A stretch of 64,000 bases of DNA from contig NW_026570224.1 in the NCBI RefSeq assembly GCF_019649055.1, positions 1,798,001 to 1,862,000 on the forward strand, given 5' to 3'. A model generated the notes under the pieces. That model saw only the letters and a list, made by a program, of their open reading frames with translations, was not told the origin of the DNA and did not search any database. A program made the position numbers and the translations under genes. This DNA comes from Paramacrobiotus metropolitanus. Its lineage: Eukaryota; Tardigrada; Eutardigrada; Parachela; Macrobiotidae. Numbering within the stretch: position 1 is the stretch's first letter; every line of letters begins with the position of its first letter. This document shows positions 1 through 36,300 of the stretch, in pieces.

Positions 1-1250
1 TTGCTGACGACTTGTTGTCTCTTCTTTTTGGATTGTTCACATTACCTGTTCATTTGTGCTGCAGCTACATCTACTGCGCTTGTCATTAAAATTTTTGTGT
101 TTGTATTCCAGTGATGTGCATTTTACGCTTTTCTAGTTTCTTCCTCATTCCGAAGATTTGATTTAAAAACAGTATTGTGATTTATAATTCTTGAGGATGT
201 GGCTTTATAGCATGGTGATTCGTCACTTTTCATCTTATCTGTCGGTTGAATTATCCGGTCGTAGACTTGCTCTTGCTGCTTCAACACAATAAAATAATCT
301 TTTTTAGCGGCCAGCACCATGCAGTTAAAAGTTTTTATATGACTAATTTGCTTGATGCATTTGACTAGTCGACATAAATAACAAATTCGCCGCTAAAAAT
401 CAAAATTTATTGGTTACTTGTTAATAACCTGATATTTTCAATTTTGTGAATGCACGTTTAACATTCTAGCCTAGTGAAACATAAGATTCATTACGAAAAA
501 TACAAACTACGATTTCCAACAACTCAGAGTTTACGAAAAAACTAAGAACTACACTATCGGTAAAAATTGAGTTTTAAACATTGTATTAGCAGCACAGTGG
601 TATTTCAGCTGTTCTGAAAATTAGAAAAAATTCGTACACGATTTGTTCTTACTTCCTCATCTCTTTTGTGCATATCATATCTCACTACAATGGAAGATAG
701 TGTTCAAGATCCAGTGCTGCAATGCAGTTAAGTCTTAGAACGACCTTAACAATTACATGACGGCGTATATATAAGCAGATGCATGAAATGTTTCAAAACG
801 AGCGTACCGTCGTTGTTTTCTTTGAAAGCCACATAAGTTTAAAAAAGGCACAAATGTTACTTCATCCAGTACGGCTGCATTTACCGCCCAAGGGAAGTGC
901 CGAATTCCCCCCAAGAAACCTCTTTTAAGCTGCGCTGCCCTGTTACAGGAGTGGCAAAGCTGGTAAATTATGGAGGCAGCAGATGTGTATTTACTACCAA
1001 TAATACCTGCGCTTAGCCAAAAGAACACGTTCTTTTGTTACCAGGTACACGGCGGGGACGTGGCAGGCAGTGTACCCAAACCTGGATACCTTTGTACGCG
1101 GGCACCGTACCTCACTAGGTATCCAGGCCGGCCGTAAGGTCCTTAGTGCCCGATATGATATATCATGGAAAAGGACTTTATGCTTAAAATTTGCAAAACG
1201 ATTAAAACCAATAATTTAAACTTTATTAATGTCATATTCCACTGCATGGT
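1..1250. other. left edge, no supported gene
   Basis: AT-rich sequence downstream of the DUF3987-type gene. Open frames on the minus strand at 123-320 and 753-1028 have no splice context or family resemblance that I can support. A perfect 11-bp inverted repeat at 1081-1091 / 1117-1127 is listed separately. Confidence 0.5.
1081..1127. repeat. short perfect hairpin
   Basis: Arms CCTGGATACCT (1081-1091) and AGGTATCCAGG (1117-1127) are exact reverse complements around a 25-nt loop. The surrounding 100 bases are more GC-rich than the flanks. It lies just beyond the 3' end of the DUF3987-type gene and could be a transcript 3' structure or part of a small foldback element. Confidence 0.6.
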
Positions 1251-3134
1251 TTATTTCTTTTTCGCCAAGTAAGGCGAGTTTTGCTTGTTAGCTAAAAACT
1301 GTTGCATATTCTTAACATACGGTTTCAAATTGCATTCTTTCATCTTAAAGTTCAATTCGTACTCATGTCTTGTGAGACAAGCGTATTCGAGTAGCTCATT
1401 ACCGATCTGATTTGGCACGTTTCTAAAAAAAAATATCACTTGGTTGCCCCTGTTTTGGAACGTCTTCCACTTTCCTAACCCGTCCTTTCGTTTGCATTTT
1501 TTCACAAATTCCGTATCGAAATTTTCAGCGCCAACTCCGTATTTTCGTTTTTTAAAAAATGCGGCAGGGTAGGCTGTTCCAGGTAAGCGCAGAATCTTAA
1601 CCCACGGACACGTAGTCATCCTTACCAAAGCCGCTTCGTCACTCGGATAAGAAAGTTCCTATTAATAACGCGTACATTACCACTATATATGTTTACCAAC
1701 ATATATTATTTATACGTTGAGCATGCCAACTTTCCGAGACAACGTTAACTTATCTGCTGTGGATTTGTCAAGATAAAAAAATAACAAATGAATAAGCAAT
1801 AAAATAACCAATTTTTAAGCAATAAAAATGAAATAAACGAACATTACCGTTAGGTAAGCTCCCTTAGCTTTTTCTGTAAGGTCGTAGAACGGGGCCACAG
1901 ATTCGCAGATACCAAGTTGTATGAGTACTTCTGGAAAACGCAATGCTAATCCAAATGTATCAATCATATAATACCGAAGGATCTTGTACAAACCGTTTGT
2001 CATTTCCAAGATTTCAATCCCTCTGTTCTCAAATGCAATCTGATATGTCGTTACGAAACATTCAACCATAACATGGGCCACGAACGCCAGCCTTGACATT
2101 TTTATGCCGTGTTTACTGCCGCGAGTGCAGAAAATGTTAGCGGCGGTCGTCAAAGTCGGCGCCAAGCGCTCACGTTCTTCTGATTCTAAACTGTAAAAAT
2201 ATTTTTCACGATAGTGTAACCAATAATTTATCTGAACACATACATGTATTGATCATTCAATTTGATCAAAAATGCTTCCGCTTCTTTGGACATCCGAAAT
2301 TTCTTCCCATTAAACACGCTCTTGGCCATTCTTAAAGCCGACTTCATTATAATTTCCATATCAATATTTCCATTTTTCAATTGCTTTGCAGAACTGGTAA
2401 CGAGTTTTGCAGGAACTTGAGACTTAGCGCCACCAACAACCAACTGTCTACTCACAAGCCCGTCCATAACCCCCAGTTTCGAATTAAGCAATTTCAAAAA
2501 ACCCATCCGGATGCAGCACTAAGAGGCTGTTAAAGTATATGTCATCAGTTTCCTATTACAGAAAAAAGGTTAAATAGCGCTCGCTTGGTAAGACGCGTAT
2601 TTCCAAATTTAACGTACTAGAAAACCATTTTTGCCATCTAAAGACGACCATTTACATCCGTTATGCATCTGTAGCATAAAATCTTTTATGCCACTCTCTT
2701 TATTGCTGAATAGTTTGTGCGCGGCCTGCTCAAAGTCATCACAGTAGAGCAATATGTTTTTTCGACTTTCCCCTGTGGTATCTGAACCAAAAACCAAATT
2801 TTGCAGACCGGCTTTTGTTGGTGCCCGTATCCTGAAGAAATCATCTCGGCATGATTAGCACCATATTACACACTTATGCATTATGCGAGGCGTTTATTGC
2901 GTTATGTTATATAACGGGTTAAATACCCATTTCGATATACCTTGCGTAATTTTCGTCTTCGCGCATGACCTCGTCAACCCAATCAAGAATCTCCATTGGG
3001 CCTGTTTTTCCGCACCCATTCGGCCCGACCACAAGCAGACTTAAATTCAGCTTTGTCTTCTTTAGTCCAAATGGTATCTTGACAAAAATTACATTATTAT
3101 TCTCACCTACAACGCCACTGCTTTTTCTATCCAA
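1251..3134 (-). CDS. DUF3987-type P-loop NTPase (primase/helicase-like), five exons, 5' end unresolved
   Basis: Minus-strand gene with exons 3134(or less)-2941, 2831-2618, 2518-2244, 2190-1848 and 1658-1251. Each junction is GT-AG and the phases (2,0,2,0) keep one frame for about 478 codons. The first exon carries a Walker A motif, VVGPNGCGKTG. Exon 2 has LLYCDDFEQ, which matches the acidic Walker B-like 'LLYRDE' motif of DUF3987 proteins, then a conserved NG.KWSSLDGKNG stretch. Exon 3 has DGLVSRQLVV, matching the family's 'DGL..R.LV' motif, and the C-terminal part (RMSKEAEAFL... MSRLAFVAHV) fits the helical tail. DUF3987 proteins are mostly bacterial, plasmid and phage replication-type NTPases. 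No role in animals is established that I know of. Upstream in-frame sequence runs into a stop, so a further 5' exon is expected; an acceptor at about 3115 is possible. The next gene upstream on the same strand is an SGNH hydrolase. Family assignment is by motif memory, not a search. Confidence 0.68.
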
Positions 3135-3985
3135 TTCAAAGAGAGTCGTCGTACGTCAAAATCAACAAAGTACAAAGATTGGAACTATTTATTCAAAATG
3201 TATTTTATTCCTCCCTTATTCCAAATATAATTGATCCATTTTTCAAACATAAAAATTCAAACTGCATCGCATAAAAAGTTTCCTGCATCGAGGAACATAA
3301 AATATGTGATTTTGGTTAGTTTAATTCACAATTAACTGAAATCTCAGAAACAGCTTGAGTATTCTGTTACGGTCTACTAAACTCTGCAGTTAAAAATGTT
3401 TGTATAACCATTTATACATTTATGTATTTATTTCATTTTATGACCACAAAATGTAAACAACATAGAACACAAATCTGAATTTTTTGGACATAACGTGTGC
3501 CTACTAATATAATATTATGCCTCATACTACCTCAGCGCTGCATTTGTCAAGCACAACAGCGAACGCGGAAGCCATCACTGCGAAGAGTATTTCAGGCGTG
3601 CTCCCTACTGCCTTCGCATACCATTGCAATATATTCCCTGTTAACGATTAACTTTAATAATTTGATTATCTGTTTCATTTTGTGGAATCTGGTTACCATA
3701 CGTCCTCCCAAAAATTTTTCGAAGGTCGATCGTCGAATTAGCACACTTGGTGGCGGCCGTGTAGCAAGAGACTTTAAAAGCACTATTGCGAGTGTTCGGC
3801 ATTCTACTATTTCCACACGTTTTCTTCCTTCACTTTTACGTTGTCTGCCGAAACATCGTCTAATTAAGTGTTTTGTTGAGCCACGCTACGAAAAGGTCTA
3901 CACCAAAATATATTTCTTTGATCATCGTTAGCATAAAAATATGGTGCCGCGGAGAACCTGCGCTGCAAAGTGATTGAAATCTCTA

Positions 3986-4700
3986 TAATCTCTTACAAGA
4001 TGATAGTACAGTAAGTATTAAGGAAGTGGGCCGCAGTTTACAAGCAATGAAAGCCCTAAGTCTGTACATAGACCTAATGCAATACATGCCAATCATTATA
4101 CCTAATACCATGCCGCGAAGAAGCTGCGCACAATTAGGTATCAGATTGGCATTACGTCTACAAGATACAGCATTCATTTACTAATATATGTCTATCAATT
4201 TACTACTATATATCTATGTCCTACAAGTTGATAGTACAGCACTACGCAAGCCCACTGCAGTTTGCTAAGACTGAAACACCTAGGTCAACACATGGACCTA
4301 ATCGTAAATGCCAACTACTATACCTAATACCGTGCCGCGAAGAAGCTGCGCACAATTAGCTATTACATTGGCATTACGTCTACAAGAGGCAGCATTAATT
4401 TACTAATATAAGTCTATCTCCTACAAGCTGATAGTACAGTACTAGGGAAGTGCAGCGCGGTTTCCTAAGACTGAAAGACCCAAGTTTGTACACGCACCTA
4501 ATCATGAATGCCACTTATTCTACCTAATACCCTGCCGCGAAGAAGCTGCGCACAATTAGGTATTACAATGGCATTACATCTACAAGATATAGCATCGATT
4601 AACTAGTATATGTCTATCTCCAACAACATAACAGTACACTACTAGGGAGCTGCACCGGAGTTCGCTAGCACTGAAAGACAGACGATGATAGTAGAGTAAT
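3986..4700. repeat. tandem array of three ~200-220 bp hairpin-bearing units plus a partial fourth
   Basis: A unit of 200-222 bp recurs three times, with a degenerate partial copy to about 4690. Each unit contains a hairpin at 4087-4151, 4309-4373 and 4509-4573. The outer arms begin TGCC and end GGCA, and an inner pair is ACCTAAT / ATTAGGT. The central block GCCGCGAAGAAGCTGCGCAC is identical in all three copies, while outer arms and spacers have diverged. It sits between the SGNH hydrolase stop codon (4787) and the DUF3987-type gene. It could be a satellite, an array of structured RNAs, or a repeated regulatory site. Confidence 0.8.
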
Positions 4701-4786
4701 ACTATTATATATCGTATATGATCTGAAATATGTAACGAATCTCTAACTCACAACTCGTGGTATTTATTCTATGCGAACGAAGACAA

Positions 4787-5473
4787 TCAAACATGCTTAG
4801 TAATAGACAACAACTTATGACGCAAAGCAGTTGCAAATGCACGACGAGGCGATCCAACAGAAGAGTACTCTGCATACCTAAGATGAATACCATCTTCTGT
4901 AAGATTATCATCTTTAAACAAACCCGAAGGAATCAAGACTGATATATTTCGTGCACTGCAACATTCCCGGAGACACTGATTGTACACCTTAATCACAGTA
5001 TCAGCAAAGTTTTGCATATACTCCCCCTTATGCATGTGCCGATTAAACAAGCCTAACACAAGAAATTTGTCGCTTCTTTCGGAATTGTCCTCACAAAACT
5101 TCACGAATCTTGTTACAAGATTGGCAACAAATGTACAGACTTCATCCTCCGAAGCACCCCCTGTATGCTTTTTCAGAAATGCAGTGAGGTCATTCGCGCC
5201 TGCTTCAATTACGACGACTTTTTTCCGCCACGAATTATTTAAGTTCCACTGGGCAGCATCTAATACACCCGATGCGAGAGCACCAGATTTGCTTTCGATG
5301 TATACAAACATGTCGCGAATTTTCACAATCTTTCTTATCCAGTAGCGAGCGAAACTGTCTCCGTAAATCACTATGGGGAACGAAGGTATGCCTTCTCGAG
5401 TAGCATCTTTCATGACACGTTTTGCTTCGTACTGGTCACCGTAAAACGATTTTGTACGGTAGAAACATTCCAT
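4787..5473 (-). CDS. SGNH (GDSL-like) hydrolase domain protein, intronless
   Basis: A single 228-codon open frame starts with ATG at 5473. It carries the hallmarks of the SGNH hydrolase fold: block I VIYGDSF near residue 37 (nucleophile Ser in GDS), a block III-like EAGANDL near residue 90 (GxND, oxyanion Asn), and block V EDGIHL near residue 195 (Asp and His of the triad). All catalytic residues are therefore present. There is no clear signal peptide or membrane segment, so the product is probably intracellular. Such esterase-like domains occur as host enzymes and also inside some mobile elements. The substrate cannot be read from sequence. The lack of introns contrasts with the five-exon gene downstream on the same strand. 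Confidence 0.72.
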   Translation of the reverse strand: MECFYRTKSFYGDQYEAKRVMKDATREGIPSFPIVIYGDSFARYWIRKIVKIRDMFVYIESKSGALASGVLDAAQWNLNNSWRKKVVVIEAGANDLTAFLKKHTGGASEDEVCTFVANLVTRFVKFCEDNSERSDKFLVLGLFNRHMHKGEYMQNFADTVIKVYNQCLRECCSARNISVLIPSGLFKDDNLTEDGIHLRYAEYSSVGSPRRAFATALRHKLLSITKHV

Positions 5474-6043
5474 TTGTTACCTACAAGTACCTATTTTTAT
5501 GAAATTGGAACCCTTTTTATATCAAACTGAAAATTTACTGCAAAACTTAGAACTGACCATTAATATCGTGTAAATACAATGATTTTATACTGTACATACT
5601 TGCAATATGCAAAATCACTAAACAAATTCAGATCACGCATTAAGCAAACAAATTACAGAAACCCTGATAACAGAAAACTCAATCCACCCAAACAATTTAT
5701 CACTGTAAAAAATAGCCATACGCAATAATATCATAGAAATTTAATAATATTATAGAATTCCAATAATATTATAGAAATGTTTCTATATTATAGAAATTAG
5801 CCGTACCATTTGATAAACGCCGTACGATAAGTTAAACTCCTGCCGTCCTGCCTGCCATAGACAGCCTCCCTAAACATTTAACACTGTGCTATGCAGAGTT
5901 CCGCTACAGTCTGCAATCGTTTTTCTGCTCGTAACCCTTACACTTTTGTGTTCAATTTAAAATTACTAAACTGATTTCAATTACATTAAAATAAATTTTT
6001 ACTAAGAACGATGGAGAATTGTGTGTTCCATATGAGGATAATC

Positions 6044-6577
6044 CTTCTTTGTTTCGTTTGTTAAGCTGTACAGCGCCCGTGTGTCGCTAAGGACTAACGA
6101 CATACAATACTGCAGCCTGTAGCCTCTAACTCTACGGCCTATCCATGGTGACTTTTGCTGACTTTACTTACTGTCATAACATTCTGAACCCAGAATGCCA
6201 AATAATCCAGCAACAAAACAGCAAATCACCCAGGAACAGTTAGTCCGTAAGTCATCACACTACAAGCTACAGCGCAAAAAGAGCAGTTTTACTACTAGAG
6301 TAGTATTTTGCCCAACTCCGCAACTTCCCCCTCTTAATAGATTGATGTTCTGTTCCTGGATTATCTGCTGTTCTGTTGCTGGATGATTCGGCATTCCGGG
6401 CTCCGAATCTAAAGACACTAAGTAAAGTCAGCAAAATCTGCTAACAAGTTGGCAATAGATAGACCGTAGAAGCTACAGGCTACAGTACCATAGAAAAGCA
6501 CTATGTACTGTATTGTACATCGTTGGTCCATAACGACACACAGCCGCTGCTCAGTTTAACAAACGAAACAAAGAAGG
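6044..6577. mobile_element. foldback (long inverted repeat) element
   Basis: The left arm (about 6044-6241) and right arm (about 6349-6577) are imperfect reverse complements over roughly 190 bp. They share the outer end CCTTCTTTGTTTCGTTTGTT, then GTGTGTCG, TTTTGCTGACTTTACTTA, GAATGCC, and the inner end CAGCAA.ACAGCA. About 110 bp of unrelated loop separates them. There is no transposase frame, so it is a non-autonomous foldback/MITE-like element of unknown superfamily. I could not define a target-site duplication with confidence. Transcribed RNA would form a long imperfect duplex. Confidence 0.8.
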
Positions 6578-6767: not shown

Positions 6768-8559
6768 TACTCCTAAGTTCCAAAGATTGCTCTTTTGAAA
6801 AAAGTTATGCCAACTCAATCGAACATTGCGCGCCGCCAGTACCCAATATAAACTTGAAAACCTTTTTTTCGCCCACCCACTACTGTACAGTGACGAAAAA
6901 AGAATATTATTTTGCACATTACAGCTGTAACAACACCGAATTCACTGCGGTACCTGAGTGTGACCTATACCCTACGTGCTGCTCACTCCAGTCCGTGCCA
7001 AAATCCTGTCGGGAACCGTTTCGCACAACTTTCCCCGTCGTGGATAACGTCGCTATGAAATGGCAATCGGCCTAACTGAATTGTTCTCCACGTGTGGTAC
7101 TGATCTTCAGGGATGTTATGAAATCCAGTAGTGATGCGGTACACAAATCAATACTAGACCGTCAGTCGTACTGACGCCTACATAAACTTGCTTAAATTAC
7201 CAACTTTGGTTGAAAATTGTTCTCATTCTGTGTGCGAACCTGGCGTTTACTTAAATATATCGTTGCCCAGCAATTACTTGCCGCCTTGTGATAAATGGTC
7301 TTCAAGTTAACTGTCGCAACTCGTAACGTTTATTCCTGTGCGCATAAATGTGCAATACTGTCGCATTCTTTCGCTAACTAAAACTCAAGCAAAAAATTTA
7401 AAAATAATAAAACCACGGAAAATAATGACTTATGTTTGGAGTTGTCTTAATAACAAATTAATATAAGAGCTTAAAAATTAGAATGTACGATTCAGTACGA
7501 ATGAAAGATGTTATGATTACAATTTACGTAAAGGTACGTTTTTTCGTCTGTTAATGTTAACCGACATGAGCTACATGGATTATTTTGAATTTTTTTATTC
7601 GTGCTTTGTTCATACGCATATCCGTGGTAAAGCTGGAAAATTACTCATGTCACTTAATAATACATATTAAGTATCATAAAGAACCGCCTAAAAAAACATG
7701 GATAGTATAACGATTTAAGTAACGTTCGATCGGGTGTTATGGACTTCTTAAGTTCTTAGTAACCATTAGCGATGATAGTGGTTAAGGGTGCTCAGTAAGT
7801 CGAACGTAAAAAAATCACCGCCTCTCTCGAGTGATTGCCGACCCTTCACTGGCGCTGCCTGCTGCTAACCAGCCAGCGATCCCCGTCCCGGAACTGCATC
7901 CACACTCACACAACTCTACGTATGCTGTACACACCGACAACTTGATCCCAGCATATAATTCCAAATAAAATTATCAGCAAATGTCATTAACTGAGTCAAT
8001 ACCATCACGTATTACTCGATATGCCGGTTGGTGCTCTCTTGGCACAGCGCATCACGCTGCACTGCGGGATTAATCTCTGGATGATGCCCTTCAAGCATTG
8101 AGTTTCCTCCGGCCTTGTATCCAGCATTACAGCGCCAATTACGTGCCGACGATAACGAATCACTGCCTCGCAGCAATCTTCCCCTCTACGCAAACGTTTC
8201 TACTTTTATAGCGAGTGTACTATTTCGCTGCTTTTCGCACCAGTATATCAGAAATTATTATCTAGCCCAAACTAGCTCTCTTGATATCTATTATTAATTC
8301 TGCACGAAAAAAATGAATATGTCAAATAAACAATGACGGTACGCATTTTAAAACAAATACCCTACGGTAAAGTAAAACCAAAGGAATCAAACAAAGCGGC
8401 ATGCAAACAAAACACCGAGAAACGCTTCAGACGGCGAAAAATTGACCTTTTTAATGCAGACACTGCGGCTCTTTCAACCTATACAAAAATCAATAAGGGC
8501 AATGTGCATGTCTTCCTCAGTTCACTCACCCATATGGATAAACATTATTTCTCCATATT

Positions 8560-9110
8560 CTAACCATTTCTCTACCCAGTTTCTCTACCCTATTTCTCTA
8601 CCCTATTTCTCTACCCAATTTCTCCACCTTATTTCTACACCCTATCCCAGTACCATTTTTCACTCACCATTTTCTCTATCCTTTTTCGCTGCCCAACTTC
8701 TCCATCTTATATCTGTACCCTAATTCACCCTATTCACTACCACTTTTCTCTGACCATTTTCACGACTTTATTTCACTACCATTTACTCTCTAACCATATT
8801 CTCAACCCAAGTTCCTCTACCCTGTTTCTCTGCCCTTTTCTCTACCCAATTTTCCACCTTGTTTCACCCTATCTACTACGTTTTCCACTCACCATTTTTC
8901 AACCAAATTCTCTATCCTATTTCTCTACCCTTTTTCTCTACCCAATTTCTCCACCTTATTTCTACACCCTATCTCACTACCATTTTTCTCTAACCATTTT
9001 CTCAACTTTATTTTTCTCTAACCATTTTTTCTGCCCAATTACTCTACTCCATTTTCTCTCCACTTTTCTCTACTCCTATTCCACTCCGATTTTCCCCACG
9101 CTTTTATACG
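8560..9110. repeat. pyrimidine-rich minisatellite (TTTCTCTACCC units)
   Basis: About 550 bp of + strand is built from variants of an 11-13 bp unit, TTTCTCTACCC(TA), mixed with CTAACCATTTTCTC and TTTCACTACCA relatives. Long stretches are almost entirely C and T, so the two strands are strongly asymmetric. The apparent reading frames inside are consequences of the repeat. Confidence 0.85.
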
Positions 9111-11103
9111 ACGCTATGCACAATTCCACATTACTACATCCAATAAAACAACTCATATTACTACATGCAATAAAACTCTCACACGCATATAAGTGAGTAG
9201 AGTACCATTTGTACTGGTACTGCACAGCCCTCAGTACACTTATCTGATGCTGCACGTTTTGGAGATAGTGGCAGTCGGAGACTCGGAATCAGGTCGAGAC
9301 TAATACACGCATGCCCGTACGCGAGGTGGTTGCACTTGCCGCATACTATTTCGCAACAATAGCCGTCCAGCTTGCACTCAGGCAATCTTCCCGTAAACAA
9401 CTCCACAACAGAAGTTTTTTACAGTTATTATGTAATAAAACCCGTCCTTCGGAACAGTCCCCACGAGGGGACGCCCCGCTAGGGTTTCGAGCAAAAACGT
9501 TCATTAATATTGTCAGTTTGTAACGGGTACTACTGTAATTACCCAGTCTTTTAACACGTAGCTTCACCCTGACAGCAAGTATGCCGCCGTTTCAAACTTT
9601 GTGTATCAGGTAATGGGTCGTGCCTGCTGCAATATATTGAGTGTGGTGATAGACCACCTGCGCAAATTAAGTATGTAATTTTACAGAGATCTCCAAGTTG
9701 AGCAGAATTAAATATAAAACCAGGTCAAGGGAAATTATGTGGTGACAATACCCCGTAAACAGTAATACTCCTACATTTCTGTAATACCCAAATAACATAA
9801 TAATACGATACATACGAAAGCTGAAAAATTATTGTACAGATACTTTATCCTGATCAAGCTACCATAAAGTAGAACTGTTTAGCAGATCTTAAGGTGAACT
9901 TGCTCGCCGTATGCTTAACAACGTATGCCACTGTTACACCGGCTATACCGTAAATTCGTAATTATACATTATTGAATAGTTCACATTTTAAAAAACGTCG
10001 AGATATAATATTACCATGCATTTTGTAAGTCAATAGTGTTAATTGCTTCTGATTATCGATTTTTGCCTGCCGTATGCATATTTTTGATTGCGTTTATCCT
10101 CAACGGTCTAATTTTTGTTCTTTTGCCACAAGATTGTCGGTGAATTTAATTAATTGTAAGTGGAAATCATTCGCAAAGTCGTGGTATACACGAGGCACAA
10201 TGGCCCCGCGATTCCAGCTCCACATGCATTGCGTATTAAATTGTGTATGGGAAGTGCAGGAAACGATCCCTACTCCCAGTTGAATATTTTTTTCTGCGAA
10301 GTTAGTTGTTTGCGAAGCAATTGTTCAATCAGGGATAGCTATTTTAAATGCAGCAAACATGCATTTCCGATTTTTGGTATTTAGATACATCATTTAATAC
10401 CTACAGACTGATTTTGAGCCATTAAGCGGGAAAATTTTTGCATCGATCAATATGGTCACAGTAACTGCGAAAATCAATCTTACAAGTTACAACATACTGT
10501 GTACTGCATGTACTTCAATATGTCCATATATATCGCCTGTGGGTAATATTTTCCCAACGTGACAAAATTAATCCAGGCCATAGCCGCAGCTCGGCATATG
10601 GCAAAAGTAGCATTAAAATAGTCGGATGGAGCGGGAGCGAGTTAAGAGTTTCTGGAGGTTGTTGTGCTTAAGTGCATGATAAGAGCTTTGTACTTTAAGT
10701 GCAACCTGGAACAACAGTTAGTGATGGGGCAGTAAGCGCGGAGCCTAACTGCACCAGTATTACACATGCTGCTGTTGGACACTAGCGTTAATTTTAACTA
10801 ACTTCCAGTTTCTTTTGCAAGATTCCTACCCAAATCATGAACCATGCGTTTTCGTCGAAGACAATAAACTATTTTTAGAAATTCTTCTCTGAAATACAGA
10901 TGTTTAAAAAGGTTAAGTCTTACTGCGATTAAAGCTTGCAATTCTCAAGAACAATTATTACAATTGAAGCAATATTATAATCCTAAACAAGCGAAAATTT
11001 CGTAAATTCTTTGTGAGCAACAATAAAAAATAGAAACAGAGGTTCCATGGCTCATGTATTGTAGTTGTAGTTGTGTTGACTCATGTTTTGTTGTGGATTG
11101 TAG

Positions 11104-18691: not shown

Positions 18692-21600
18692 TCATACTTT
18701 ATGCAGATAAAACTTTTCAAAATGGTTAACAATAGTGCAATCGCCATGGGAAAATGTGCTTGGCATAGCTTTAATCTCCTTCATTCGGGAAATCACGCTG
18801 GTATTGCTGCCGGAAAACGAAGCATTGTTCCATAACTCCACATCATCCACACCATCGTCTGATAAATCTTCGCCGTCAATCAAATGCTCACGTCGTCGTG
18901 CTAGCGATGCATATCTGTTATGCTTAAAGGTCGAAAGACAAGCTTCTATCAGCTGCGCCTGTAAAACAAAATATACTCGTAGTATGAGTACAGAGTTAGT
19001 ACTGTCACAATTGTACGTTTTCACATTTTAGTAGTGCTACGTAAAGGTGTAAAATACAGGTGTAAATATGTAATCCATATTATTCAATAGTAAGCATAAC
19101 CAGTATTCAGTAATATTCGGATATAACCAATTATCACCGGGCAGTAGCTAAAGACAATATTACTATAAACACCACTTATCCCATCACGAAATAGCAATGA
19201 GTACAAAGCACAAAAATGAATAAATCACTGCATTATTAGCCTTACAATAAAGAAACTGGGGAAATCTGCGAAAGTGGCTCAAATTTAAACACAGAACCGT
19301 TTAAGTACACATCCATAGGATACGAGAAGTTTTTAATTGTCCCAAGCGGCAGACTCTTCTAAACGGCAGAAGTTTTATCGTGCACACAGTCCGTACCTGT
19401 TTAGAGTAAATTCGGAGGGATCGTGTTTCAGCGGCCACTCGACTTCCTTTTTCATTCAGCACTGGGATTTTCATCGTTATCATAAGACAAGCCGTATCGA
19501 CATTTGTCATGGCATCGTGATCAGGTGGTTGACGGCAGCAAAATGTGAATTCATAGTGCCTTAACGCCAATAAATACTCCTGAAAGACTCAACGAGTAAA
19601 ATGGAAATACTATAACAAGCAACAAATGTCTATGTGCAAAGTACAAAGGTTTTAGAGACAACTTAATGAAGGGATTTACAGAAAAAGCGTACCGGGTACA
19701 TCTTCAATTTTTCTACTGAAGGCAGAATTAGCATGCCTTGTTCATTCACAGCAATCCGTACGGCAATCGCTGACCGTCCAAACAATGTCTCTGTCAGCCG
19801 TGAAGATGGTCGAGCCTCCATAACGCCGTTAAAAAAGGCCGCTCTGTAAAAGTCATTTTAACAGATATTACTTACTAAAACTATAGTAATGCATAAGCGT
19901 GCATAAACAACGAGTGTATCTGTACTCTGTGTATCATCGAAAAAGAACGATTGGAAAAGATCGCAAATGTAGCACAAGTCAAGTTAGTCAAAACAACACT
20001 GTAGTATCAATATGCGTGCTCGATTTCATTCAACACCACTAAAGTGACGGGCCGGCCAAACGTACCCATAAGCAGGATTTGCCTGGCAAATCAACAGAAA
20101 CCTCAAATGAATTTCCTCTGCTGAACTAGCGTACGTTTCCTCATAAGTCGCTTTAATTAGATCCTTAATGTCACGCTCTCCGTTCATTCTACGGTAACTA
20201 TTATCGTTCAGGAAAAGAGAAGGAAAAAACCGTTCGAATCTGAAAACACGGACACACTAAGACACACTCGCATAAAATTATTTACGATATAAGACATGAA
20301 ATTCACTGCTTACCGCACAGATGATAAGAAATCCGAACCTTCAACAAAGCGCCCGTGCACTTTAAATAACAGTAACACTCCCAAAGATACCACATCATCT
20401 CGGCTAAAGAGATATTTGCAGCCCAAGTATTTGATTTGTGCTTCTTCGAACAAAAGCTGCAGGAGACGAGAATCCATGATCTAATAAAGAACTCCAGATT
20501 GTTATGGTTCCAGCAGAAAAAGCAACACAATAACACAAATGCACAGAAATGCGTACCTGACGCTCTTTCGCAATGGGAAGAAAAACAGATCGTTTTACAT
20601 ACACCAAAATGCCTGCGATTATACAGTGAGTTGAAGAATAATCCAAGAAAAGCGCGCCATATCCCTGATCAACATATGGCCCAAATTCAACAGTGCAATA
20701 TAGCCTACCTGGGTTTTCCGTCACATGAACATCTGAGAATTTCTTCAAAAAGTACCCCCAATATTTTTGAATAACGAATGGATTATGTCGGGCTTTCAGT
20801 TGTACTTCTGTAAAAATACAGTACGTACTACGTATAAGCAAGAAAATTATGACTATCACCAAACCGCCGGTAACGCAACTTAATTTAAAGTGCTAGATAG
20901 AATACGAATACACTGTATAATCAATCCGCTTATTCTCGGTCGATTAGAAAGTGCATACCAAATTCAAGGTTGTCATCCGTAAACCACACAGCTAAGGCGT
21001 TTTCCGCTTCCAAACGGTCAAGATTCCTGGCGCGGATAACACAGTCCACAAGCTCTGGGCATCTGCATCGATATCCTCCGCTCGGCACGAAATCTACTGG
21101 CGAATTGTCCGCCAAATATGCGGTTATTCTCGGCCCAACTGCAAAACAGTAAAAATGACCAGAGAAAAGATCCACACATTACAACAGCAAATCCTGACGT
21201 CCAGGGAAAAATTACTGAAAGTAGTTTATGTAATTACCAAGTAAACTGCCAATAATTCGGTCTATCGACTGGTTGCTGGTGGCAGTGCGTTGTTGATAGG
21301 GTGCAGCCAGGGTGGGTCGGGATTTTTCCGAGACACTGGAGCCACGGGAGACTATTTGAAAAAATTTGTAACGTATTACAAGTTTAAATACAGAGTTCTT
21401 TGTGAAATTCAGTGGCTAGTACCTTGTAATAGCTTGAAACACACTACTTTTAACATTTTCTAGAAAAATGTTCTTATAAGCAAGCAGAATGCAGGTATAA
21501 TTAAAAATCATCAAAAATTAAGTGGTGTAAGTCTTCAACTTGTCCGTTTCAGACATTTCTGGCATGCCTGAACTGTTGCATGTTTTGTGTGGGCAATAGG

Positions 21601-22016: not shown

Positions 22017-23216
22017 TTCCACGCGCGCGTATTTTCCTCCGGTGGCTTTCGGCTCCCAGTGGTAACAGTCCAAATCCGCTTATTATAAATTTTAAACACG
22101 ATGTGCTGGTATGATAGCAGCCCCTTTGAAGCAGCGCTGATGGTCCACTCCAGCGATTTACTACAAAAACTTCTCCAAACATCCAATCACCGTCCTTCGG
22201 CTTTATTAATGACTGTTCTCGCAGAAACTATTTGACAACAAGTAAACCATGCAGACTCCCCGTTAAGCAAGCAGTGACTGCTGAGCAGCCAACCTTATCA
22301 CATGCAAACGAGTTACGAAGATCTGCATCAGAAACGGATAACCATGTAGCGGTCTGCGCATTGCATTCACAATCGCGTGTTCGCAGTTTCACACTGAAAC
22401 GGTCAAGTATAACATTTCTAGTTTCCACTCATCAATAAATATCAGTCCAAAAGACCAAAAACAAATCTTTGAAATGGTATCTGCTAAAACATTTTTACTG
22501 TATAAAAATTTAAAATCTTAATCTTGTCTTTCGAACAAAACTGAACAATTAAAAATAAATTAGAAACCTTACCAAGGACGAACGGAGAACGGGAGAAGTG
22601 CAATGACTCTAACTTTAGAGTTTTTACGAGGGGTTGTAAACACAGCTGTCTGTCTTCTGATTGGCGTTCATTCAGAAACCACAACAATCGTCTACAAACT
22701 GCAACCGACACAAAGCACTAGATAGTGCACGACAATTAGTTAGAAAAATTAATTTTGATACGTACTTTTATCTTTTATGTAGTTTGCTGTTTGTGATATT
22801 TATCGCGGACTGTTTTAACTGTTAAACAAGAAAGTTCCCTGCCTGTTTGAACTGATTGCACAGAAGGAATGCGTATTTCACCTTCTTTCCACTTTTATGT
22901 TTTGTTAGCAAAAATTTGTGTGTGTGAAGTGGGAAGAAGTAAAAGCTACAGAATTTGTTAATTGAATCGGGTTTTGATATTTTCCCTGGATTGTTATGTG
23001 GTATTAAATAATTGTTTGGGTATTTTGTGGACCCTTTGTATGTTCCACTTTGGTCGTTCGTGTGAAGTTGCTCAGCGATCTTTGGTCTTGGAGCTTGCAT
23101 CCAACTTTTACGCTAGATCACAAGCATCAGATCATGCGTTAAGATCTTCGCCTTTTGTTTAGATTTCGAAGTCGTATTCCTGTTTTTGTATTAGTGCATT
23201 TTACTTGGGTGATTAA
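22017..23216. other. divergent intergenic region FRMD8 / SETD9
   Basis: 1.2 kb between two divergent start codons, expected to hold both promoters. Small open frames on either strand have no family resemblance. Confidence 0.5.
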
Positions 23217-28268: not shown

Positions 28269-29180
28269 TCAAACAGCCAGAGTTCACTTGACACCTCTCC
28301 ATATTCTATGCGCATGAAGCCGAAGTGACGTATTATTGTTGCGAGACTGGACATATGGGACAGTGGATTGTGTAGTCTGCATCGCCCAATTGGAGCCGCT
28401 CGTCGGGCCCACGTTAATTTGCAATTCCACATTGTATGACTTTTTTATGGTTGCTGCTGCTTGCATTTACACCGAATAGTGTTTAGGAAGTTCAAATGGA
28501 CTTACCTAAACTTCAGAATTTAGTAAGGTTCAAAGGGCCATCGAGAAAGCTAATTGTTGAATTATTTGAAAAGTTAACACGAGGAAAACTCGAAAATAAA
28601 TGGCCGGTTATCACATAAAAAAAATGTACTACTTTGACTTTGCCCAAGCGCAGGTACCAAAGCGAAGCCAAGCCATTGGCAGCCACAAGCCATCCGGGTA
28701 GCCGTCCCATTACAGTAATCTTCTCGAGAATTACAAATTACTGTGCAGTAGTTTCTCACTCCTAAGGTTGCTAATTGCTTAATTTTAAAGAGACACGTTG
28801 TACACTAGTAATTGAGTAACAAATACACTGTAGTTTGTGATTGCGTTCTACATATAACATACTATAATATATTATACGAAAAGTCTATAAAAGCAAAATT
28901 GTTCCGTGGTGCCAATTTATTGACGTTTTGAGGATCTGGACAGCAAACATAGAACTGCACTATGAAGCTAAACCCGAATATTACAAATCATTGCTGGCGA
29001 TGTAACCCATAAAATTCTTGCGGAAGCCGAAGTCCATAATCTGAAAAGCGTAAGCGAGAGTAGAGATTAGCGAGAGTAGTGGCGCCAATCTGCTACTGAA
29101 GTGAGATTTTGGAACATTACAATGCAAAAAAAGTGAAGAATCTAGAAGTGCGATAATATACCTATCTGGGGATCCACAGA
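28269..29180. other. shared 3' region PABPN1 / RPS28
   Basis: 910 bp between convergent stop codons. Several small open frames, none with support. Expected to hold both 3' UTRs. Confidence 0.5.
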
Positions 29181-29535
29181 CTACCGCAGCCTGCGGGCTT
29201 CGCGTTCACTTTCCATAAGGGTAAGGACATCGCCTTCGCGAACGGGTCCCTTGACGTTCCTTATGATGTTGCGGTTAGATTCATCGAGGAACTCCACTCG
29301 CACTTGGGTGGCTTGTCCTTGGGAACCAGTCCGACCCAGCACCTTCGTGACCTGTGACAATTCAAAACGTTTGAGGTCTGACCAAATAACACACCCTGCC
29401 ACCACAGTTGACAGACTATAGAAAAACCGAAACTACAGAAACCCCGAGCCAGCTTCGGGGAACTGGCTCTTTCTATAATCCGCGTTCTACAGTATCGGCG
29501 AACCATCTTACCTTGGCTAAACGGATCTTGTCCAT
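29181..29535 (-). CDS. RPS28: 40S ribosomal protein S28 (eS28)
   Basis: Two exons, 29535-29512 (MDKIRLAK) and 29351-29181, 64 residues. The second exon is almost invariant: [37 protein letters not shown] and the terminal [10 protein letters not shown]. It is a small OB-fold protein of the 40S head near the mRNA exit. The start ATG is the only one that completes the N-terminus, which is a few residues shorter than in human. The first intron, right after codon 8, is typical of ribosomal protein genes, where it often separates 5' UTR and start from the body. Confidence 0.97.
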
Positions 29536-31360
29536 GGTACCCACAAAGTTTATAAGAAAATGTTAAAAACCAGGAATTCTCAACAAATTTACAAATTTAT
29601 TCGAATGAAGTGAAACTACAGCAGCCAGACTTCATGCAGTGTAGAGTCCGGATAGGTGCTCAAGGAAACTTTTTTGAAACGACGAAATTCGTACATCCAA
29701 AAATAACAGTTCGTTTCCTGGCACACTATACTAACTCTGTCCACTGTTACCTCCCTCTATGCATGTGCCACGGATTTGCTTATGTAAAAAACTTCGCTTC
29801 GCTCGTCACTGTAAAGTCTATTATTTACAATAGTGACTAGTATTAGTGTAGTACTGTAATACAGCAAGACTGTATCGTACACGGTACAAGGGCGGCACAA
29901 CTTTTACATGGGAACCCTGGCACTTTTCTCGGACTGCAAAAGGTCCAGTTTGCAGCGGCACATGTTTTCAAATTCGCCTTTTCGGTTTCACCAAATTAAT
30001 TAAGTATTAAATTCGATCATTTTTATTAGTGTAAATCGGAGCAGGCATTTTGTTATGTATACTGGCTTTTGTCGAAATAAAACAACATTAAGTATATATT
30101 TCAAATTGCAATCTTATTAATAATTAATTAGACGCAACTCTAAATTAATAAGTATTGGTTTGTGCGGTAGTCTGTAGTCTGTACTCACCATGCATTGTAC
30201 TATTTTTATAGGTAATTAAATTTTAACTAGCCATGATTTAAGTCCTGAATATGTAAGAACTGAATGAACTTAGAACTGGATTTGTAAAATAGTAAGAAAG
30301 CAAGGGCGGCATGCTTTTATTTATTGTCAAATAAGCTTATCGAAGTTGCGAGAGTTGTGATTGGGTTTCGCGGATTTAATTTTATTCACGTACACCTGGC
30401 GAAGCAGAAGCAGTTTACTATAGCGTTTAGCGACTACAATACATAATAGTGACACCAGCCAGCCTGCTGAGCCTGGTGCTCGTTTAGAACGCTTTATTAA
30501 GTAATAATTTTGTGTATGAAATGTATCGGCTACATCTGTTGGGATTTTTAATGGCCCGCTCCTATAGCTATCCGGTGGCCGGCGCGAGCCATACGGGCCT
30601 ACGGCCCACACCATATGCCGCGACGTCGCGGTACAGTGTACCGTTTATAACGCTAATTGTAAGTCGTTATTGAACAGTTTTGTCCATGTGTTGTACTACT
30701 ACAGACATCGTTCCCTATCAGATCGTCTTTGATGTATCGTACTTGGAGACACCGAAAACTGGAAAAGGTGAGAAACGCAACAGTAAGTGCTTTGTGCGTA
30801 CCACAGTAGCGCAGAATTAAATCAATCAGTAAAACTACCACTTTCGTCCTAATTCCGGCACTACACGTCCACGAAACAACGCCGCGCTGATGGGCTCGAA
30901 ATGAGATGCATTTGCGGCACGTTAGTATAAGTAATTTGTAAGTAGCGTTGCAGTCAGCACTCAGCATATGCCGACCATTCGCCCGCTTGTCATGCACTGA
31001 CTGATTTGAGCAAACACGCTGACCAACTCGATCTATATTTATGAGCGATTTTTGTGGCGCTCGACTTCGTGATGTGGGCGTTTACATCATAAATAAAAAA
31101 AAACCATTTCGATAATAACGTTCTTGTTTAAGGCATTAGTCACAACTACAATCTGAATCAAGTCATGTCAGCACACGCGCGTTTGACGCTTCAGTTTCCA
31201 TTTCCGTTTCCCAGTTATCGCTAAATACAAGCGAAATCACTCACAAACTACGGTGCAGCTGTGTTCGAAAGCTCGTTGGTGTTATATGGTACCACTACTG
31301 CCAGTCTGCCACATTTCCTCTCTGAAATTTTGTTTCCCACAAGAATACTTCCGTACAGTT
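29536..31360. other. intergenic RPS28 to CLIC, no supported gene
   Basis: 1.8 kb between divergent genes. A GC-rich patch lies at 30540-30650, with GCCGGCGCGAGCC and CCGCGACGTCGCGG palindrome-like runs. No coding frame supported. Confidence 0.5.
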
Positions 31361-32236
31361 ATGGACTCCGAAAATCCCCAGATTGCCAGTGTAAAACTAT
31401 TCGTCAAAGCCGGCATGGGAGATGGATCAAGCTATGGAGCATGCCCTCTCAGCCAGCGTCTGCACATGATTTTATCTCTCAAGGCAAAAAGCGGCGAACT
31501 GAATTACAGCGTGTACGCCATCAGTTTAGCCAAACCGACGGAAGAATTTAAATCGCTCGGTTTGCGACATGTTCCCGCCATCAGCATCCCTCAGTGCGAT
31601 GTTCACCTGGACAATATGGACGAGATTCTCGAATACATCGACCGGACGTTCTACAAAGTTGACCTTTCGTTTGACAACGTTTTAGCCGAGCGCGCATGTA
31701 AGGATCTGTTCTCCAAATTCTGCTTTTTTATAAAATCCGTGTCGAAGGATGCTTTCGGATTGACCGCGGAACTGGAGAAACTCAATGCGTATTTAACACA
31801 ACGCGGCTCACAGAAAGGACCGTTTCTGTGCGGCAAAGACATGACTTATTTAGATTGCGAGCTCCTTCCAAAACTCCAGCAAATCCGTGTGGCTGGACGA
31901 GAAATTAAGGGTTATGAAATACCGGAGAAGTTTGAGGGAGTGTGGAATTACCTGAAGGCGGCGTATGCAACAGATGTATTTCGCGATTCCTGTCCGAGCG
32001 ATGAAGAGATCATACTGCATTGGATGGACAAGACGGAAATTGGACTGACCGTCAGTAAGCCGCAAAAACGACGCAGCGCACTGATAAACGTTAATGAGAA
32101 GACACATTCATTTAACGTTCCCAGCGAAAATTTGCCCCAGGAGAAATACGAAATTAAAGAAGTGGGAAAAAACATCCAAGAAACACTGAACGTGCCAGAC
32201 ACACCCAAAGAGAACAACAACGTTGTTCATCTATGA
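31361..32236 (+). CDS. chloride intracellular channel (CLIC) family protein, intronless
   Basis: One uninterrupted frame, 291 residues from ATG 31361. It matches CLIC proteins along the whole GST-like fold: LFVKAG...GACPLSQRLHMIL (the C-P-x-S redox site and putative membrane helix, here CPLS), LRHVPAISIP (cis-Pro of the thioredoxin fold), FLCGKDMTYLDCELLPKLQQIRV (the TLADC..LPKL hallmark), KGYEIPEKFEGVWNYLKAAYA and CPSDEEIILHW. CLICs exist as soluble GST-omega-like proteins and as membrane forms; nematode EXC-4 acts in tube formation. About 65 C-terminal residues, charged and disordered, extend beyond the usual end. An in-frame ATG at 31286 would add a short hydrophobic N-terminus, and the AG just before 31361 could be an acceptor for an upstream non-coding exon. 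Absence of coding introns is unusual in this window and could mean retroposition. Confidence 0.92.
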   Translation: MDSENPQIASVKLFVKAGMGDGSSYGACPLSQRLHMILSLKAKSGELNYSVYAISLAKPTEEFKSLGLRHVPAISIPQCDVHLDNMDEILEYIDRTFYKVDLSFDNVLAERACKDLFSKFCFFIKSVSKDAFGLTAELEKLNAYLTQRGSQKGPFLCGKDMTYLDCELLPKLQQIRVAGREIKGYEIPEKFEGVWNYLKAAYATDVFRDSCPSDEEIILHWMDKTEIGLTVSKPQKRRSALINVNEKTHSFNVPSENLPQEKYEIKEVGKNIQETLNVPDTPKENNNVVHL

Positions 32237-33356
32237 CTTCAAGATTTCCCTGCTTTGCATACATGTGTGCTATTCAAGACACTTTTCACTTTCGTAAATT
32301 GTAATAAGTATTTAATTTCCTTATCGATCACGTGTGTGGTCACTCACTGTGGTGCGCAAGATTGTTGACTGCTCGCAAAAGTTCAATGCTCACATAATCT
32401 TAAAATAGCTCAAGATTTAAGTTTTGCTAACTGGCCAAATCGCAAATGAAAATGCTGGTACTGTATCGTGCGAAACGAAGATACTTGTACTTCCGTGAAT
32501 ACACATCAGTGTCACTGTGTCAGCTGTCAGCACAAAATTAAAATGCCATTTCGGTTAATAATAACTTTTGAAATACTTTGTAACTAAACCACCCGTGAAA
32601 ATTGTATTACAGTAACCCTCACGTGGAGATAAGTCGCAAATTACGTCTGCCTCCTGCGCTAATAGTTGCCAGTTTTTCGTTTCAGTTTCCTATAGATTCG
32701 TTACAATCTGTGCGCCACAACAAGTCAGAATAAGCTGTACTTGACCAATCCAAGCTGGAAGCTATATATTCTTTAATAAAATAATGGGCTCAACTAGTGT
32801 TGTAAAAGTTGTTAACATTTCCGTTGAGTAGCGTCTGATGCACTTATAAATGTTTAACTTAAGACCAACCGGTTAGTGTACTGCCATATTATGCGGTCAA
32901 AAGACCCAAGAATTGCATATGGACCATGACCATTTGCTCTTGGTCAAACAGATTACCTATGCATAGACAGCATAGTGCGTAACTTTTCTAAGTAGTCGGG
33001 AAGTTTCATTATATACATCATACATGTATATAAATCTATAATCGTTTATTGGATTGATAACCGTTTTCGTCATTATCTCCCAATACTATAATAAATATCC
33101 CCATCAGACTAGACGTTAAATCTTTGTATTACGTACCATATTGAAAAACGCCAATTTCCAGACGGACATACGAAGTATTCGCTTCAGCCTAGGGAATCTT
33201 AATTAATTCCCACGCACAAAAAAAGACAATGACAGTACTTGTACATGTACAATTACAACAATGCTACTACAGTCTATAACACTTGAGACGAAAGCAAATG
33301 TTTATGACAGGAATGCTGCGAATTATCACCAAACAACACGTACTCTGTACAGATCT
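32237..33356. other. shared 3' region CLIC / GAK
   Basis: 1.1 kb between convergent stop codons, AT-rich. No gene or element recognised. Confidence 0.5.
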
Positions 33357-36300
33357 TTAGGTCAGCGACTGCATGCCGGAATTTTCAAATTCGGACCAGG
33401 CATCGTTCAACTCCATAAAAATCATCTTTGCTCTTGATAAATGTGGCGATTCGGTCAACTAAAAATTAAAAGATCCAGTTTAAAACAGAAAATGCCATCA
33501 CAAAGCTGGACGCTTAACACTTGCAACTTTTAAAAAAAAATTAACAGATTTTGGAACAACTGAGCATTCAATTCTACAGGCTGCTAGTACAGCGACATCT
33601 TGGCGACACGTCTATGCCGTATGACTGAACAATATCGAATACTCACTTTATCTGGGTGTACGACCAGAACTGCTTTCCTGTATACCCTCTTGACTTGATC
33701 GGCTGAAACCAGCTCATGCATACCTACTCCTTTCCAGGCACACCCATCCCATAATACAGTATTTAAACTACACAACAAGGCACGGATATTTCTCCGTTTC
33801 CCCTCCGTCCATTCCCGAATCTACGAGACAATTCGAAAATTCATCGAAATTAAAGGATTTTGAAATAATCCCAACTCACCTTCAAAGTTTCCGGATCAAC
33901 CGTTTCACTAACACTTCCGCTTGTTTTTCTTTCAGTGTTCTCGGGGGCCTGGTGGCGTTATTGAAACCCTGCGGTAACATGTCATCCAGGAAGTTTTGAT
34001 TAACAACCGGCTTCGTACCGGAATATACCGGGACCTCATTGGTCGTGTTCCTAAACTGTGCATAATCCGGACGGTAGTTCGTAGGTTGCTGTGGTTGTTG
34101 AGGGGTTTGATAAGGAAATCTCTGCGGTCCAGCTGCACCTGATGGAAACATTGGCCTTGTATCCCTCATATATGTGGACTCCCCGGCGTTGGGGATCGGA
34201 TGTTGGCATTCATACCCATCACCGGATTACCGGACTGCCCTGTGCTCATGCCCATCATGGGGTTGGCCGGCTGCCCAGGACGCACTGGCGGTGATATTGA
34301 TCCACCCAAATTTCCCAAATCCGCAAACGGATCCCGCTTCATTCCGGCCAAATTCGAATTGGAAGTATTTCGAGGTAATTCCGCAGTCATCGGGGTCAAA
34401 AGCGGTTTACTAGAATCCTTACCGCCAAACAAATCGCCAAACGGATCGGGAGCCGATTGGGAAACGGGTTTCGAAGCGGCCATACTGTTCAGGCTGTTGT
34501 TTGATCCCGGCCGCGACAGATGCGGTGACTGGGGCAAAAGTAGCGGACTAGCACGATTTGTCGGTGTGGCTACACCAGTTACGCTGGGAGCAACCGGTAC
34601 ACTCGTGGGAGAGCTACCGAGCGAATCAAGCCAATTATCCATGCCAGATGTGGGAGCAGCCGCAGCAGTAGGGGATGCTCTGGATGTAGCACTGACAGGC
34701 GGCGGAGGCTGGGATAGCGCACCCAGGCTCATGAATGGATCGATAGGAACATTCGTACCTTAAATTAAAATCCGCATTATCCTACCAAACATCATGTAAA
34801 ACCAAAATGCACATAAGAAGTGATACAAAGTTCATTTCAACAGACTAGGACATTTTTCTCTCAATTATTTTGAAATAGGGTAAATAGTCATTACTGTAAT
34901 TGGCAGCAGGTGGTTCCTTAGTAGTCGAGCTGTCCCATTGATTTCCGCCCAACAGGTCAAAATTCATAGTGGCCGATGATGGACCCTGTTGTTTTACCAC
35001 TGAGGGTCCGCTTGAAGGAGCGCTAGGAAGAGCACTACCCATATCCAGCAGATCCTCGACGTATCCTCCAGTTTCGGAAACTGGCGGAGGCATTGGCGTC
35101 TTGCTTTCTGCTCCAGCGGGCACCTGCGTTGTCGGCTGAACTGAGGGAATTTCGGAACTCCCAAGTCCCAGCAAGTCTTCCTCTGGTGTCAACAGCGGCT
35201 CAGGTGGTGGGTTGACTTCATCCAAACTGGGAGACGCGGAGGGAGGCCTAGGAGGTACCACAGCCTTTTCAGCAGGTTTCGGAGATCGTGGTGGCTGCGG
35301 TCGCGGCGGTTTCGGTGACGGCTGAGGCATCGGCCGGGTAGAAGGCGGGGATACAAAATCGACTTCCTGATTGGGCTGTTGACTAATTTTACGATTCGGT
35401 GTGGATTCAGCTTCCGATTCCGAATATGACACAAACCTGCCGTGTTGTGATCTGGCCGATGGGTTCTCAGCTTAAAACAAAATCATATACTGAGCAAACA
35501 AATTTATCAGCACAGAGGGTACAGAGAAAGTTCCAAGAGCAATTACTAACAGCAACAAGCACATTGCAATGTACATTTCAACTTTACTAGATATTTACCT
35601 GGCCTCGCACTGAAATCTTCTTTGACCAGATTAGCAGCAGCCTGCTGAACGTTTTTGACAATATTTTTTCCACCCTTAACTAAATTTCCCAGAAGACCAC
35701 CGCCAACGCTTCCGAAAAGACTTCCCTGCTGTTGGCTCTGTGTAGGTTGACTAGTCGGGGTGGGTTTGTTTTCTGTCGCTTCGTTTCTTCGTTGAGGTAC
35801 ACCTACATCAAAACCAGATAAATATGCCAAGTTACAACATTTTTATTTGAAAGCATGGTAGCCAGAAAACCAAAAGAAAACAAAGGAACATAACCAAACT
35901 GAAGGAAGTCAACTTCTGACTAACAACGTGCACACCGGTTTATACGAAATTAATTTCATAAACAAGTATGTAAAAAATGCAAAATAAGTCGATTTACAGA
36001 CCGCGAATGCTTGTGAGCCTTTTTATTATAATTAAAACCTGCTACGAAACGCAACAAGTACAACACTGGTTTCGCTGAGGAGGATAGTCCAAGGGTTGCG
36101 TACCCGGATTAGGTGCCTCGACCACTGGAGAGGGAATTTTGACGGTTAATGATTTGTTTGTTTCGACGTTTAAAGTTTCCGCCATAGATGCCAGAATTTC
36201 CAGCACACCATCAATATTTGGTCTAGTGACTGGATCAATTTTGAGTAATCGACCTGAAAAAAATTTTTTGTTCAACATATTAATTATACAAATAAACCGA

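Follow-up and report, generated by a model that had tools for sequence, protein, structure and literature searches.

In bacterial elements, DUF3987 domains (PF13148) are found beside primases in the place of known helicases, and they are predicted to be helicases themselves (PMC5862659). The reports that we found on DUF3987 or PF13148 concern, by title, bacteria, archaea or phages, and among them we found none on this family in an element of an animal. Helitrons, which reach 39 kb in maize, so that size alone is not new, are stated in a review to capture full-length genes exceptionally rarely (PMC6431247). Helentrons are defined by an AP endonuclease domain located C-terminal to the helicase (PMC4067079). 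In fish, the texim SGNH hydrolases are carried by Helitrons, and both a role in transposition and hitchhiking are proposed (PMC4021074).

The window, a stretch of 64,000 nucleotides (C4:1798001-1862000), belongs to a genome of 170 Mb in 533 contigs, which was searched for related sequences. The genome was taken to be that of an animal in the preliminary description, and this is borne out by 34 Wnt-family matches, compared with none in 14 control genomes, those of them that are named being prokaryotes. A spliced coding gene for a putative ATPase spans the 1251-3134 stretch on the minus strand of the window. Its Walker A (GPNGCGKT), acidic CDD (LLYCDDFE) and DGL.SR (DGLVSR) motifs are all present, as originally described. 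The ATPase family is multi-copy: 42 matches, a lower bound obtained at E ≤ 1, are distributed over 11 contigs, on four of which (C4, C62, C155 and C137) the gene is largely preserved. The close copies map to C62:157048-158945, C155:26131-27999 and C137:36067-37715, and the pieces found on C96, C79, C110, C129, C173, C249 and C31 are short or decayed. Decayed pieces occur on one strand of C79 approximately every 20 kb between 278.7 and 344.2 kb. These pieces correspond to different parts of the gene and their register is rough; they perhaps form a tandem array, of the kind that rolling-circle elements can make.

An eight-exon model was built by aligning the four preserved copies (Table 1), all introns being predictions. 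The C155 copy is open across the eight predicted exons, which comprise 554 codons. The start codon is located ~670 bp upstream of the start given in the preliminary description, which had proposed five exons joined by four GT-AG introns. All four donors and three of the four acceptors are kept in C155, but three 5' exons (exons 1-3) had been missed, and the true start of the exon formerly considered the first is at 3106. The absence of internal stops over about 478 codons, also claimed, holds only through an acceptor at 2518. This acceptor was rejected, as it lacks a pyrimidine tract and bridges a frame change that is missing from the three other copies. If the acceptor that keeps C155 open is used, exon 6 starts at 2552, and the frame of the window copy is then interrupted within the exon. 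The interruption is absent from C62, C137 and C155; C137 carries a different break in exon 6 and is also truncated, and breaks are found elsewhere in C62. A comparison of the window copy with that on C62 over window positions 1-6200 revealed 2 substitutions and 15 indels, with 12 of the indels in homopolymers. Because differences between C4 and C62 are mostly homopolymer indels, the interruption is as likely to be an assembly error as a mutation.

Table 1 Features of the ATPase locus, in window coordinates.
Feature	Position	Strand	Remarks
ATPase exon 1, start codon (MPNTRN...)	3697..3802	-	In frame and open in C155; omega 0.05, 35 codons
ATPase exon 2	3531..3637	-	GT-AG conserved in C155
ATPase exon 3, putative 13-nt micro-exon	3371..3383	-	Phase-consistent; acceptor and donor conserved in C155
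ATPase exon 4, Walker A GPNGCGKT	2941..3106	-	
ATPase exon 5, acidic motif LLYCDDFE	2618..2831	-	
ATPase exon 6, HPDGF and DGLVSR motifs; frame interruption in window copy	2244..2552	-	
ATPase exon 7	1848..2190	-	
ATPase exon 8, stop codon; C-terminal part common to the DUF3987 proteins of this genome	1251..1658	-	
~200-bp tandem repeats separating the SGNH and ATPase genes; every unit contains an imperfect hairpin	4083..4680	.	
Putative SGNH/GDSL hydrolase, single exon, 228 aa	4787..5473	-	Accompanies preserved ATPase copies
13/26-bp period repeats ahead of 3' terminus	8566..9094	.	
Helitron/Helentron-type 3' terminus: CGTCCTTCGG, hairpin GTCCCC-ACGA-GGGGAC, end at GGG/TTT	9244..9487	+	

In the old copy on C96, the border between exons 5 and 6 is occupied by an intron-sized gap, so the copying took place from DNA. 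The transfer of a gene to the host followed by intron gain, one of the two origins initially suggested, is not the best account, because the family is dispersed and mostly decayed, and the C96 copy already features the intron-sized gap.

The putative SGNH hydrolase gene (below, SGNH) matches the Pfam Lipase_GDSL_2 profile with 26.4 bits (1.1e-5), below the curated cut-off of 32.9, and includes GDS, GAND and DGIH blocks, read by eye. It is present on C4, C62, C137 and C155 only (6 matches, E ≤ 0.01).

Both the ATPase and the SGNH genes are under purifying selection. Over the 554 codons compared, 76 synonymous and 47 non-synonymous changes separate the ATPase genes of the window and C155 (dN 0.037, dS 0.255, omega 0.144), the excess of synonymous change corresponding to a binomial p of 2e-22. 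Differences at the three codon positions number 28, 18 and 77, and the same columns read in two shifted frames gave control omega values of 1.77 and 2.68. For SGNH, omega is 0.24. Exons are 84-96% and introns 66-93% identical, values that alone are not decisive. The early view of an intact and maintained gene is partly confirmed: coding is shown by the omega value and C155 is open, but the frame of the window copy is interrupted in exon 6.

The assignment of the protein to DUF3987 could be retained only as a distant kinship. Hmmscan searches carried out with an E limit of 10, in which the filters of the program drop most matches above about 0.1, did not reveal PF13148 matches for either the protein initially translated or the full C155 protein. 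In the same scan, the spliced DUF3987 protein encoded by this genome at locus L001 scored 58.4 bits. Weak matches of the ATPase to AAA_15 (0.045) and APC1_C (0.14) were the only ones obtained. Profile-profile comparison of the ATPase family with the true DUF3987 proteins of the genome revealed three collinear blocks: one at the N-terminus, which includes Walker A, a second that runs from HPDGF through DGLVSR, and a third in the C-terminal part. The chain scores 79.7, whereas no more than 24.8 was reached when the columns were shuffled 150 times. The top-scoring block taken singly (30.6) also beats all 150 shuffles, narrowly (maximum 29.1). Because hhalign probabilities are low (13.9% in one comparison; at most 6.3% per block and 48% globally in another), homology rests on collinearity and motif spacing. 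Walker A, the acidic motif, HP..F and G(L/F)..R occur in the same order in the ATPase and in DUF3987, and distances from Walker A are 55 versus 52 to the acidic motif, 112 versus 107 to HP..F, and 376 versus 334-336 to the C-terminal GLGK. Judged by these sequence features, the ATPase is a distant relative, not a scored member, of DUF3987, whose predicted helicases belong to phages and to mobile elements of bacteria. Unlike DUF3987, it has eight predicted exons and no PF13148 match of its own. The missing match, the weak AAA_15 and APC1_C hits and the low hhalign probabilities would all suit an AAA ATPase of the usual animal kind, which has no relationship to DUF3987 and is grouped with it by P-loop motifs alone. 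We regard this as highly improbable, as the collinear blocks lie both inside and outside the P-loop, the chain beats 150 of 150 shuffles, and the motif spacing matches that of DUF3987.

No relatives of the ATPase passed in viral contigs or, by tblastn, in phages, and none of 48 pattern matches in prokaryote genomes was confirmed. Three weak tblastn matches in plasmids (E 0.2 to 1) did not include a usable relative. PDB sequence, PHROGs (ATPase protein) and Rfam searches gave no useful result, and the AlphaFold models of SGNH (pLDDT 39) and of the L001 DUF3987 frame (pLDDT 34) were unusable.

True DUF3987 genes are represented in the genome by 9 matches on 8 contigs. Loci L001, L002, L005 and L049 correspond to contigs C74, C81, C32 and C154, and other loci are on C94, C59 and C68. 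On 7 of the 8 contigs, sequences matching an archaeo-eukaryotic primase similar to C962R of ASFV lie 1.0-8.2 kb from the DUF3987 matches; in L049, the PF23162 score is 22.4 bits, just under the cut-off of 23. Where they align, the C94, C59 and C154 copies show 99.1-99.96% identity. A deoxynucleoside kinase frame is found near DUF3987 copies (dNK 2.4e-20 in L049). In L001 only, an IS1595/Merlin-type transposase frame (L001 2913-3677; PF12762, 4.7e-12) directly adjoins the DUF3987 gene. The DUF3987-primase set has the appearance of a replication module, prokaryotic-type or virus-like, that resides in the genome of an animal, and the association raises the question of prokaryotic-type replicons in animals. 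Unlike DUF3987, next to which a primase is common, though not universal, the ATPase has SGNH and a Helitron Rep as neighbours. When the genome was searched with a single primase query, the 15 matches fell on 10 contigs, none of which is among the 11 contigs of the ATPase family, and a primase partner was ruled out on this basis.

The ATPase and SGNH genes lie within a segment of 24-27.5 kb shared by C4 and C62, which starts to the left of the window and ends at position 9487. Identity, measured piece by piece from C4 1783197, which is the limit of the C62 sequence compared, ranges from 98.3 to 100%. C62 has no match at collinear places for C4 1778001-1780000, 1760001 and 1700001, and window regions 19000-21500 and 47000-49500 match C4 alone. 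The possibility that C62 is a contig-long haplotig was rejected, because the collinear positions that lie another 24 and 84 kb to the left have no match; the two contigs could be haplotypes in part.

Frames encoding Rep and PIF1 are located on the plus strand towards the left end of this segment, at about -15.1 to -11.1 kb relative to the window. They include frames of 206 and 1148 aa and a further open frame upstream, reaching C4 1781501. The 1148-aa frame matches PIF1 (3.6e-21, 76.2 bits) and, in pieces below the cut-off, Helitron_like_N (PF14214). In the C62 copy, PF14214 is over the cut-off at 174409-174996, and the Rep frames are split. HLH and Y..SY stretches, which we take to be the motifs of the Rep frame, were read by eye. 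A Rep (HUH) and a PIF1-like helicase within the shared segment are as in the Helitron superfamily. Unlike in Helentrons, no AP endonuclease was seen in a Pfam scan (E ≤ 0.1) of a 968-aa part of the frame.

On C155, a PF14214 match at 41853-42437 lies 13.9 kb beyond the ATPase, the corresponding distance in C4 being 15.5 kb. The Rep match, ATPase and SGNH have the same order, and the Rep match the same relative orientation, as in C4. With 79 PF14214 matches in the 170 Mb genome, the chance that one lies within 16 kb of a given locus is about 1.5%. No PF14214 match occurs on C137, although this contig carries both the gene pair and the terminus described below. Of the old ATPase pieces, just one, on C96, lies within about 20 kb (~19 kb) of a PF14214 match, and the relative orientation there is different.

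The shared segment ends at a Helitron/Helentron-type 3' terminus (Table 1). Window 9300-9487 has 28 further matches in the genome, 23 of which are strong; 22 of the strong matches stop at the same point and one stops 7 bp short. C4, C62 and C137, as well as small copies of 0.8-0.9 kb on C42, C45 and C100, diverge after the hairpin and GGG/TTT. At their start, the C42 and C45 copies carry the 3' subterminal repeat in complementary form, and a short inverted repeat lies nested within it; in this they resemble Helentron-associated elements (PMC4067079). The hairpin terminus with independent flanks, the T-rich flank and the existence of small non-autonomous relatives whose subterminal repeats match are all features of Helitron, Helentron and Helitron2 elements. 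Helitrons end in CTRR, unlike the present element, the 3' end of which is CTAGGG/TTT. The 5' terminus of the C4 copy was not found from C4 1781501 onward, and only the small relatives on C42 and C45 show one.

On the basis of the dispersed copies, the shared segment, the repeated terminus, the Rep-PIF1 frames, the order of the Rep match on C155, the selection on both genes and the homology to DUF3987, we favour, with moderate confidence, the view that a giant Helitron-like element of about 24-27.5 kb, the ends of which are Helentron-like, carries the ATPase gene as cargo. All parts would belong to one element, extending from beyond the left window edge to window 9487 and comprising, from left to right, Rep-PIF1 (+), Sec24- and Tipin-like pieces, ATPase (-), SGNH (-) and the 3' hairpin terminus. 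Several observations speak against this view: no 5' terminus was found in the part covered, C155 17001-35000 has neither a comparable 3' terminus nor, past its ATPase, more than a single short match to C4, C137 has no PF14214 match and a wide gap between the two genes, the one old piece near a PF14214 match differs in orientation, the Rep frames are split in C62 and number three in C4, and no AP endonuclease was seen. The idea of an element with its own replication protein, put forward in the preliminary description, is partly supported: such a protein is encoded 12-16 kb away by the Helitron Rep/PIF1 frame, but the ATPase itself looks like cargo.

The Sec24- and Tipin-like pieces, at -3.6 to -2.1 kb relative to the window, are weak Pfam matches, Gelsolin-like (0.0049) and Swi3-like (0.069), in a region that has an 86% copy on C22. 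Read by eye, they may be fragments resembling the host Sec24 and Tipin genes. Together with the purifying selection on the ATPase and SGNH, these matches would fit a domesticated pair of host genes, which serve an animal function, lie in segmental duplications and neighbour Helitron sequences by chance. This alternative is improbable: many decayed copies are found on separate contigs, the shared segment includes a Rep-PIF1 frame and, in C4, C62 and C137, breaks off at a transposon terminus that recurs in the genome, and selection on element genes is expected anyway while elements are mobile.

Homology between C4 and C155 17001-35000 is limited to window 986-5503 and 6871-7302 and to one 185-bp match (67%), which is the only match to C4 beyond the C155 ATPase (28271-35000), and the C155 region has no 3' terminus of the type described. 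These data are consistent with the ATPase-SGNH pair being an older mobile or virus-like unit, which a Helitron picked up later together with flanking DNA and for which it is only the last vehicle. Seven further contigs hold decayed ATPase pieces but no detected SGNH, and the DUF3987 relatives of this genome are located near a primase; both observations point in the same direction. We nevertheless consider such an origin rather unlikely, as the Rep match on C155 is oriented like that on C62/C4 and lies about equally far away, inverted repeats were not seen by eye at the 986-5503 edges, and the 11 contigs of the family have no primase match. An element limited to 986-5503 was also considered and discarded, as no edge repeats were seen and homology in C62 and C137 continues to 9487.

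If the ATPase is the cargo of a giant Helitron-like element, RepHel would copy the element by rolling circle, and the ATPase, by analogy with its family, might act as a ring-type helicase or DNA-dependent ATPase, aiding the element in replicating its long single-stranded intermediate. That the ATPase helps the element to replicate is a tentative proposal, derived from the relationship to DUF3987. Unlike known Helitrons, the proposed element would hold two complete cargo genes under selection, and the finding of two complete adjacent genes, selected in diverged copies, suggests that the cargo serves the carrier. A broader scenario, which we regard as doubtful, is that a lineage of giant Helitrons in animals acquired a DUF3987 helicase of the plasmid/phage type, the donor perhaps being a primase-DUF3987 replicon resident in the same genome, and kept it with SGNH as a selected replication module, letting rolling-circle elements exceed 20 kb.

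The locus shares with texim the proximity of an SGNH gene to Helitron coding sequence and the presence of several copies (PMC4021074). Unlike in texim, a DUF3987-related ATPase sits between Rep and SGNH, and the SGNH gene consists of one exon, texim genes having several introns (PMC4021074).

Other features of the intergenic and flanking regions were observed. Units related to the ~200-bp tandem repeats located between SGNH and ATPase are found in C155, and these units could be a replication origin or a promoter. On C137, ATPase and SGNH are separated by ~11 kb (38.3-49.5 kb); the examined part of this gap, to 40.0 kb, consists mostly of tandem repeats, and its flanks are 92-99% like the window. 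Upstream of SGNH, and on the same strand, C155 features a PF25043 frame (DUF7788, 8.1e-18) at 22206-22712 (L063 5206-5712), which has no tblastn match in the window. Past the ATPase gene, a non-coding segment (window 1005-1104) is identical in C4 and C155 at 99 of 100 bases and is adjoined by a strong hairpin, unlike the neighbouring last ATPase intron, which is 66% identical.
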